This document shows positions 7,193-8,719 of a stretch of DNA of 33,296 bases, piece after piece. The translations under genes and the position numbers were made by a program. Every line of letters begins with the position of its first letter. The stretch's first letter is position 1. This stretch comes from Planctomycetaceae bacterium (GTDB taxonomy: Bacteria; Planctomycetota; Planctomycetia; Pirellulales; Pirellulaceae): the NCBI GenBank assembly GCA_024225195.1, contig JAAEMV010000621.1:1-33296 (forward strand), read 5' to 3'. The notes under the pieces are model-generated. The model was given only the letters and a program-made list of their open reading frames with translations. It was not told the DNA's origin and searched no databases.

Positions 7193-7264
7193 GGCGTCGT
7201 AGCCAAGTGGCTAAGGCAGCGGATTGCAAATCCGCCATCGCGGGTTCGACTCCCGCCGACGCCT
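7193..7264 (+). tRNA. tRNA-Cys (anticodon GCA)
   Basis: All four arms fold. The acceptor is GGCGTCG/CGACGCC, the D-arm GCC/GGC, and the anticodon arm GCGGA-TTGCAAA-TCCGC with anticodon GCA. The T-arm is GCGGG-TTCGACT-CCCGC. Discriminator base T, as expected for tRNA-Cys. CCA is not encoded. Its length of 72 nt and the GCA anticodon exclude a selenocysteine tRNA. Confidence 0.97.
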
Positions 7265-7267
7265 CTG

Positions 7268-7381: not shown

Positions 7382-7600
7382 GGTGCCCCATTCGCATGCT
7401 CCTCGTCGGCGCGACTTGGGACGGTTAAATCTTTTCAATACCAGCTCCTTAGGTGGAGGCTGTTATCAGGCAAATGTTTTCCGTCCGCCAACCCAAAGAG
7501 TTTTTTTAAAAGACGTGCGAGCGGTATTGAAATTAGTTACCCTAGGCACCTCGACTTAATGATCCGCAGGGTTCTGGACTTACCGGTGAGGCATGCCACG

Positions 7601-8719
7601 ATGAAAGCTAAAATAATTACCTTGTTTTTCGTTACTTCTCTGTGCGTTCAGGTGGCGACCGGTCAGGTAGAAGAGTCTCCCGATCAGAAATTTGAGGATT
7701 TGATTGCCGAGGTAGAAGTTGCCAATCAGGCTTGGAAGGCTCGGCTGGCGGCCCTTCGTGAAGCTGAGAAGAATGGTGGCCCCTCGATACCGGCGGATGC
7801 GTTTCAGTCCCCTTTGATTCCGTTCGTGGCGAAGTTCGACACCGCCGCAAAAACTTACGCCGACACGCCCGATGCGATCCCGTATTTGACTTGGCTGGCT
7901 CAAAACGCGCTGCCGATGGTTGGCGACCAACGGAAGGCAGCGAAAGACGCAGTCCGGACGCTCGTGACGACGCATCGCAAATCACCCAGTCTTGAAAAGC
8001 TTGAGTGGATGGTAGGGCGACTAGATTATTTCTATGACGAAAAACAAGCTCTGGAAGTCGGTTTGCAACTGGAAAAGGAATCACCTAGCTCGAAGGTTCG
8101 CGCTTATGCGACGTTCTCCAGAGTGGGAGCAACCATCAATAAAGCTCCAGTCGATTCGGATGATTTTCGTAAAGCGAAGTCGGAGATCTTGACGGTTTTG
8201 GAGGGGGTTGAGATTAAAGACCTCGCCTCGTCAGTTAAAACTAGAATCGAGATGCGTGAAAATTTTTCATTGGGCATGTCTCCTCCCGATATTGTTGGTG
8301 TTGATTTGGATGGAGCTGAATTCGCCCTGTCGGATTACAAAGGTAAAGTTTTGTTTATCGATTTTTGGGGAGATTGGTGAGGTCCTTGTCGGTTGTTATA
8401 CCCACACGAGCGGTCGCTCGTAGATGAAATGAAAAATCGCCCGTTCGCGCTGATTGGTGTTAATTCGGACGATCTCGATCGAGCACAAGCTGCGGTGCGA
8501 AAAAACGAAATTAATTGGCGAAGTTTTCAAAACAAGCGTAAGGGAAGTGAGAGCTCGATTTCTGATGATTGGCTGTTGTACACATGGCCGACAATCGTGG
8601 TGCTCGACGATGAATTCAAAGTGCGCTATCGCGGCGGCAATTGTGATGAAGCAACGGCTATCGCCCGTCAATTAGTCTCTGAATTAGACGGCAAGCCTGC
8701 CGAGGTAGATGGTCAATAA
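7601..8719 (+). CDS. Secreted TlpA/thioredoxin-like protein with in-frame TGA, probable selenoprotein (WUGPC)
   Basis: Read through TGA 8378-8380, one continuous frame gives 372 residues. It starts with a signal peptide (MKAKIITLFFVTSLCVQVATG), followed by a mostly helical region to about residue 225. The C-terminal domain is TlpA/AhpC-like. It contains KGKVLFIDFWGDW, then TGA as codon 260, then GPC (Cys263), YPHERSLV, GVNSD and the cis-Pro site TWPT. The redox motif is therefore W-(TGA)-G-P-C: the TGA replaces exactly the first Cys of WCGPC. There is no shift of frame and no other defect on either side. A hairpin with a GGUC loop follows the TGA at a SECIS-like distance. Insertion of selenocysteine is the best explanation; a nonsense mutation or sequence error is the alternative. 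The ATG has GAGG nine bases upstream. Expected role: extracytoplasmic thiol-disulfide or peroxide chemistry. Confidence 0.8.
8406..8421 (+). promoter_or_regulatory. Candidate bacterial SECIS element
   Basis: ACGAGC-GGTC-GCTCGT is a 6-bp perfect stem with a 4-nt loop GGUC, beginning 25 nt after the in-frame TGA and placing the loop 31 nt after it. Published bacterial SECIS models ask for a short stem, a small apical loop with G in its first two positions, and a loop 16-37 nt from the UGA. All are met. The loop resembles the GGUC-containing loop of E. coli fdhF that SelB binds (recalled). It lies within the codons for the family block HERSLV. Confidence 0.65.

Follow-up and report, generated by a model that had tools for sequence, protein, structure and literature searches.

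The gene at positions 7601 to 8719 of the window almost certainly encodes a selenoprotein, as judged from its sequence and that of its relatives. The window is the whole stretch of DNA that was analysed, 33,296 nucleotides of contig JAAEMV010000621.1 from a marine planctomycete, a Planctomycetaceae bacterium (assembly GCA_024225195.1). The protein is a new member of the already known UxxC selenoproteins of its domain; what we would call surprising is a phylum-wide, nearly invariant bSECIS common to a diverged paralogous family. On balance we lean towards the view that a family of exported UxxC thioredoxin-like selenoproteins is old in Planctomycetota, has expanded there and is tied to a single bSECIS hairpin. 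The peptide HERSL right after the active site would be dictated by the RNA signal rather than by protein function, the hairpin would decay upon a change from selenocysteine (Sec) to Cys, and a double-Sec ULTU subfamily would be served by a single hairpin. The features of the gene are:

7601-8719, forward strand: predicted selenoprotein gene, TlpA/ResA-like thiol-disulfide oxidoreductase, probably exported, 372 aa with Sec260 (translation, Pfam, orthologues, alignment)
7601-7666, forward strand: putative signal peptide spanning roughly residues 1-22 (recognised by eye; the model has low confidence over most of residues 1-18)
7679-8266, forward strand: all-helical N-terminal domain, residues 27-222 (AlphaFold2 model)
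8273-8635, forward strand: thioredoxin-fold (AhpC-TSA/Redoxin) domain, about residues 225-345 (Pfam, structure matches, AlphaFold2)
8378-8380, forward strand: TGA codon 260, predicted to be read as selenocysteine, the attacking residue of UxxC (frame, pattern counts, alignment)
8387-8389, forward strand: codon of the resolving Cys263 (translation and alignment)
8406-8421, forward strand: candidate bSECIS hairpin ACGAGC-GGUC-GCUCGU, six pairs, loop GGUC at 8412-8415, 31 nt from the TGA (UGA-to-loop)
8588-8590, forward strand: codon of P330 in TWPT (translation and alignment)

The initial annotation had read a probable selenoprotein from a single TGA in an otherwise continuous frame of 372 codons, with KGKVLFIDFW, Cys263, GVNSD and TWPT intact and no further lesion, and translation of 7601-8719 confirmed each of these points. 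The sole internal stop is the TGA at codon 260, preceded by FWGDW and followed by GPCRLLYPHERSLV, and the frame closes with a terminal TAA. Cys263 and Pro330 are invariant in an alignment of 35 sequences; the latter is presumably the cis-Pro of the thioredoxin fold. A start at 7601 is likelier than one at another in-frame ATG, upstream at 7559, because the orthologues align from 7601. The window holds five TGA-bridged frames with at least 80 codons on each side, among which only 7601-8719 unites, as judged by eye, two halves of one domain.

Pfam searches with the read-through protein gave AhpC-TSA (PF00578; 5.7e-14, 52.6 bits, cut-off 26), Redoxin, Thioredoxin_8 and Thioredoxin, all spanning the TGA and with U260-x-x-C263 at the attacking-Cys position. 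No Pfam family was found over the N-terminal helical domain at E values up to 0.001. The AlphaFold2 model, computed from an alignment of 35 family members, has a mean pLDDT of 90.4 and is made up of helices (27-222) followed by a thioredoxin fold (about 225-345), in which strand 250-256 precedes the TGA and Sec260 stands immediately ahead of helix 261-264. Foldseek matched the model best to ResA (4nmu, TMt 0.85; 1st9), BVU-2223 (4grf, TMt 0.88) and other thiol-disulfide oxidoreductases; the top matches are about 140 columns long, the size of the C-terminal domain, and 4yod gave a longer match of 309 columns but with an rmsd of 12.9. A sequence comparison with solved structures ranks ResA/TlpA-type proteins first (4nmu, E 7.2e-13). 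The scores stay below the NCBIfam ResA/TlpA cut-offs (51.1 of 170 and 43.6 of 230 bits), and we therefore term the protein only ResA/TlpA-like. From the signal-like N-terminus, the fold and the motif we infer an exported protein acting as a thiol-disulfide oxidoreductase via Sec260 and Cys263; a natural guess at its role is the reduction or shuffling of disulfides in exported proteins.

The order of the domains, helical before thioredoxin-like, and the existence of an ORF from TTG 8393 to 8719 would suit a genuine stop at the TGA, with a 259-aa helical protein and a thioredoxin part made separately via re-initiation at that TTG. The TGA lies inside the thioredoxin fold, however, after strand 250-256, so that neither piece would be a whole domain. 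The restart product would moreover be devoid of the first active-site residue, and several Cys homologues are unbroken. We regard a genuine stop as very unlikely.

The orthologues support a selenoprotein read through codon 260. These were found in five other genomes (three of Mariniblastus sp., one of an uncultured Pirellulaceae bacterium and one of a Planctomycetota bacterium), are 76-88% identical over 372 residues, and carry TGA at codon 260 in all five cases. Between pairs, 23-86% of synonymous sites differ. The dN/dS ratio is 0.013-0.076 in 12 of 15 pairs 3' of the TGA, the other three being saturated, and 0.037-0.114 in nine of 15 pairs 5' of it, the other six being saturated; by this measure the region past the TGA evolves as protein. 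In a wider alignment of 107 distinct sites, column 260 has 85 TGA, 22 TGC/TGT and no other codon. Thus the comparison of homologues that the initial annotation had proposed returned TGA in close homologues and TGC/TGT in others.

Two of the five orthologue loci share with the window the neighbours HSP70, radical SAM, tRNA-Cys and S1/P1 nuclease, and in the remaining three none of seven other tested window genes was found. Two of these three are short contigs; the third, L055, is long, and the gene therefore occurs in at least one different setting. The tRNA-Cys (GCA) is located at 7193-7265, about 340 bases ahead of the selenoprotein gene; it is also upstream in L054 and L056, and was not found in L052, L053 or L055. 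Its relevance to the TGA was considered and set aside, given a normal anticodon and a place beside the gene in just two of the five orthologue loci.

We searched 99 genomes, the own genome plus relatives at the level of genus, family and order, for the active-site motif F-W-[GA]-x-W-X-x-x-C as DNA, varying the codon at X and using the reversed pattern as control. TGA was found at X at 73 places in 28 of the 99 genomes, and TGC or TGT at 21 places in 19 of them, these being counts of related family members and so not independent. TAA or TAG at X did not occur in the 99 genomes, and the reversed pattern gave no match in the TGA, TAA/TAG or TGC/TGT searches. The own genus is represented by 28 genomes, of which 18 have such TGA places; some of the other ten (G001, G002, G008, G011 and G015) have TGA members with a slightly variant motif.

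These data bear on whether the gene could be a pseudogene with a recent nonsense mutation, or the TGA a sequencing error. Either would account for a broken frame, yet the TGA is kept in five of five orthologues despite the synonymous differences between them, purifying selection past it is strong, the motif occurs with 73 TGA and no TAA or TAG, and the frame has no other lesion. A read error is very unlikely since the same TGA is present in six assemblies. We consider a pseudogene or error exceedingly improbable.

For a Sec codon the genome also has the machinery. The initial annotation had advised looking for selA, selB, selC and selD, and all four are located in the same assembly (6.4 Mb, 1063 contigs, 94% complete). 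In brief, the tRNA-Sec has anticodon TCA (UCA) and scores 67.4 bits (cut-off 47), selA scores 592.8 bits (cut-off 267.9), selB 365.9 bits (cut-off 242.25) and selD 257.4 bits (cut-off 125); the selB product has EF-Tu domains as well as the SelB winged-helix domain. The selD gene forms a fusion with a pyridine-nucleotide-disulfide oxidoreductase domain (L147:164-2386, reverse strand, contig C223 of the own genome); a selD fusion of such kind is mentioned in PMC2398784.

Among the surveyed genomes, a tRNA-Sec of at least 60 bits, a line of our own choice set after viewing the list, is present in 24 of the 28 with TGA places versus 36 of the 71 without (Fisher p 0.0013), and selA above its cut-off in 23 of 28 versus 39 of 71 (p 0.012); the genomes are not independent and the p values serve as a guide only. 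Of the 99 genomes, 79 have a match above the Rfam tRNA-Sec cut-off of 47; other tRNAs with a long variable arm apparently score above it as well. Five of the 28 TGA genomes are without selA above the cut-off (G003, G004, G018, G021 and G023) and four without a tRNA-Sec of at least 60 bits (G004, G021, G023 and G027). Neither gene is over its line in G004, G021 and G023, which are 80, 83 and 71% complete; in G021 and G023, pieces of selA occur at the ends of contigs. Many surveyed genomes encode Sec genes without this active-site pattern.

The initial annotation had further suggested a SECIS check. Compared directly with the published bSECIS model, as laid out in PMC13188914, the hairpin after the TGA falls within the constraints given there, with a loop GGUC of 4 nt, 6 bp and 31 nt to the loop. 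Its conservation was counted at sites for which the active-site pattern was the sole criterion, regardless of the hairpin. The 73 TGA places reduce to 71 distinct sites by a 150-nt key, with three identical places merged. The four upper pairs form in all 71, thus at all 73 places, and six pairs in 70 of 71; with a shorter 75-nt key the upper pairs form in 66 of 66 distinct sites. At the Cys places the four upper pairs form in two of 21. One of these, L184, has the hairpin itself, and the other, L233 in G036, is a chance case outside the family, its frame being stopped right after the motif. The hairpin is thus missing from 20 of the 21 Cys places. The upper pairs are likewise not formed in L057, a Dyadobacter Cys locus beyond the 21 places.

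In the wider set of 85 TGA rows, a mixed selection by protein, active-site pattern and hairpin, 84 have the four upper pairs if G-U is counted, and the loop is GGUC in 75, GGAC in seven and AGUU in three. The codons over the hairpin are close to fixed in this set: Glu is GAG in 79 of 79, Arg CGG in 82 of 82, Ser TCG in 75 of 75, Leu CTC in 98% of 85 and His CAC in 98% of 82. Elsewhere in the same genes these codons make up 37% (GAG), 20% (CGG), 23% (TCG), 16% (CTC) and 57% (CAC) of their amino acids' codons, and most adjoining conserved codons are variable, unlike those of the hairpin. No stretch identical in all six orthologues is longer than the 25 nt at 8397-8421, which consist of the hairpin and the 9 nt upstream of it; the next longest has 9 nt.

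The peptide HERSLV can be coded in 3456 ways, 128 of which (3.7%) give six pairs. Against shuffled sequences the 24-nt hairpin stretch stood out by its folding (z -2.44), with five of 200 shuffles equally good. A longer SECIS including the region right after the TGA was considered and rejected: the 48-nt stretch from the TGA folds no better than its shuffles (z -0.41), and a pair beneath the six-pair stem is formed in just 21 of 85 rows. An Rfam search of the window at the gathering score returned tRNA only and no SECIS match; at E values up to 5 over 8360-8480 it returned a single weak, irrelevant match.

An exact search for the 16-nt hairpin gave 70 matches, spread over 32 of the 99 genomes. 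The reversed-sequence control gave four matches, and a few chance hairpin matches are therefore to be expected. A TGA stands at the fixed distance from 67 of the 70, a TGC from one, and two are outside the family (L151 in G094 and L155 in G090), which we took as chance. Sixty of the 70 are active-site-pattern places, that is 73 less 13 with variant hairpins, and the ten others were inspected singly.

A change of the code or plain suppression, with UGA standing for Cys or Trp throughout, might be suspected from the Cys that homologues align with the TGA and from the tRNA-Cys just upstream, and is scarcely credible: this tRNA has the normal GCA anticodon, TGA terminates six of the 22 larger ORFs selected in the window, a UCA tRNA-Sec is present in the genome with selA, selB and selD, and the hairpin accompanies TGA but hardly Cys codons. 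The selenoprotein reading is supported by the Sec genes, the TGA in five of five orthologues and the hairpin. The initial annotation had also named what would speak against it, namely a genome without Sec genes, raw reads with TGC or TGT at this codon and homologues with unrelated stops nearby; among the results examined none of these was seen, and the Sec genes are present.

We suggest that SelB carrying Sec-tRNA-Sec(UCA) would bind ACGAGC-GGUC-GCUCGU downstream of the UGA and deliver Sec at codon 260, and that the 372-aa product would be exported. In its thioredoxin-fold domain, which would act as a thiol-disulfide oxidoreductase, Sec260 would be the attacking and Cys263 the resolving residue. 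Termination at the UGA would instead yield a 259-aa product ending within the thioredoxin fold, and competition by RF2 would bear on the yield of Sec. Being part of the coding sequence, the hairpin would also fix the peptide HERSL and its codons.

The TGA-hairpin module spans the phylum with patchy presence. Among 392 genomes drawn across Planctomycetota, 66 have it, at 107 sites in all, as do 46 of 267 genera (control 0); these matches required the hairpin core and are uninformative on hairpin variability. All of the 31 module sites inspected, in 30 loci, encode the same thioredoxin-like domain. In IMG/VR viral contigs neither a stricter active-site pattern with TGA nor the TGA-hairpin module gave a match.

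Sec and Cys appear to have been exchanged several times. The Cys rows require five changes in the tree, which has 134 rows, and well-supported branches force at least three of these; the tree has few columns, many weak forks and sampling from a Sec-type query. From the tree and the wider codon set, three of 22 Cys rows were dropped for an E value above 1e-15 (two of L088, one of L057). The TGC member L184 (G026:C166:28300-31300) has a fully intact hairpin and sits nested among TGA genes, joining one of G010 (support 100/92). It probably represents a recent change from Sec to Cys in which the signal has not yet decayed. The double-Sec type U-LT-U was found in four genes of three genomes (twice in G051, once each in G068 and G070; loci L188, L189, L190 and L182). 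Each has two TGAs and carries the hairpin at the usual spacing, counted from the first of them; together they make up one clade (100/99). Three Sec members, L104, L098 and L108, have HEQLLV and the loop AGUU; they group with a 12-row Cys clade that includes L139, has mostly HEQEL and is without the hairpin.

Selenoproteins of related type have been described before. UxxC selenoproteins of pfam00578 and pfam13905, and also UxxU for pfam00578, are given in PMC9312934, Prx-like 1/3 and Trx-like 1 selenoproteins in PMC2398784, and related entries in PMC1088965 and PMC13188914. By these accounts, the Prx-like and thiol-disulfide isomerase-like selenoproteins share with the present family common Pfam domains, a UxxC with Sec for the attacking Cys, a downstream bSECIS and a UxxU subgroup. 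What sets the present family apart from the Prx-like and Trx-like selenoproteins, as far as their summary descriptions go, is a long all-helical N-terminal domain, one nearly invariant hairpin and, in many Planctomycetota, several paralogues to a genome. Proteins of the ResA/TlpA/DsbE type have a like fold, as the matches to 4nmu and 4grf show, whereas the present protein has Sec for the first Cys and an extra helical domain. The ResA-like WAxxUGC motif protein NF041054 (WAxxUGC_long) has in common with it, by name, a ResA-like domain with Sec in the motif; that motif is UGC rather than UxxC, and the score is 25.9 bits against a cut-off of 300. The SECIS of E. coli fdhF has the identical loop GGUC on a short stem, but its UGA-to-loop distance is 18 nt as compared to 31 here, and the stem sequence and the protein differ.

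Within the same phylum, selenoproteins and full Sec gene sets are recorded for the planctomycete Porphyra isolates P1 and P2, with fdhA and fmdB named (PMC4807772); the family may already figure in table S9 of that work. Open-licence literature was searched for Planctomycetes, Planctomycetota or Mariniblastus together with Sec; among the matches listed no title or abstract opening dealt with the family or the hairpin, and earlier mention in other literature is possible. One of the listed papers, PMC1794560, has the word 'planctomycetes' a single time. The string 'Planctomycet' is absent from the main texts of PMC13188914, PMC2398784, PMC9312934, PMC12013277, PMC5029168 and PMC9402790.

Automatic annotation likely splits such genes or labels them pseudogenes, so that redox proteins of planctomycetes may be missed. 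The family also amounts to a natural experiment in overlapping codes, with the upper stem kept at 73 of 73 TGA places and the hairpin lacking at 20 of 21 Cys places. It lets one ask how an RNA signal inside a gene constrains the protein, and what comes of an exchange between Sec and Cys.

The own genome has seven matches, and four of the five listed have TGA. A short member in the same genome, L138 (G000:C156), is about 187 aa long, too short for the helical N-terminal domain. Tandem pairs of family genes, about 1.0-1.6 kb apart, were seen in L166, L030, L137 and L208, and also in G292:C53 and G477:C200.
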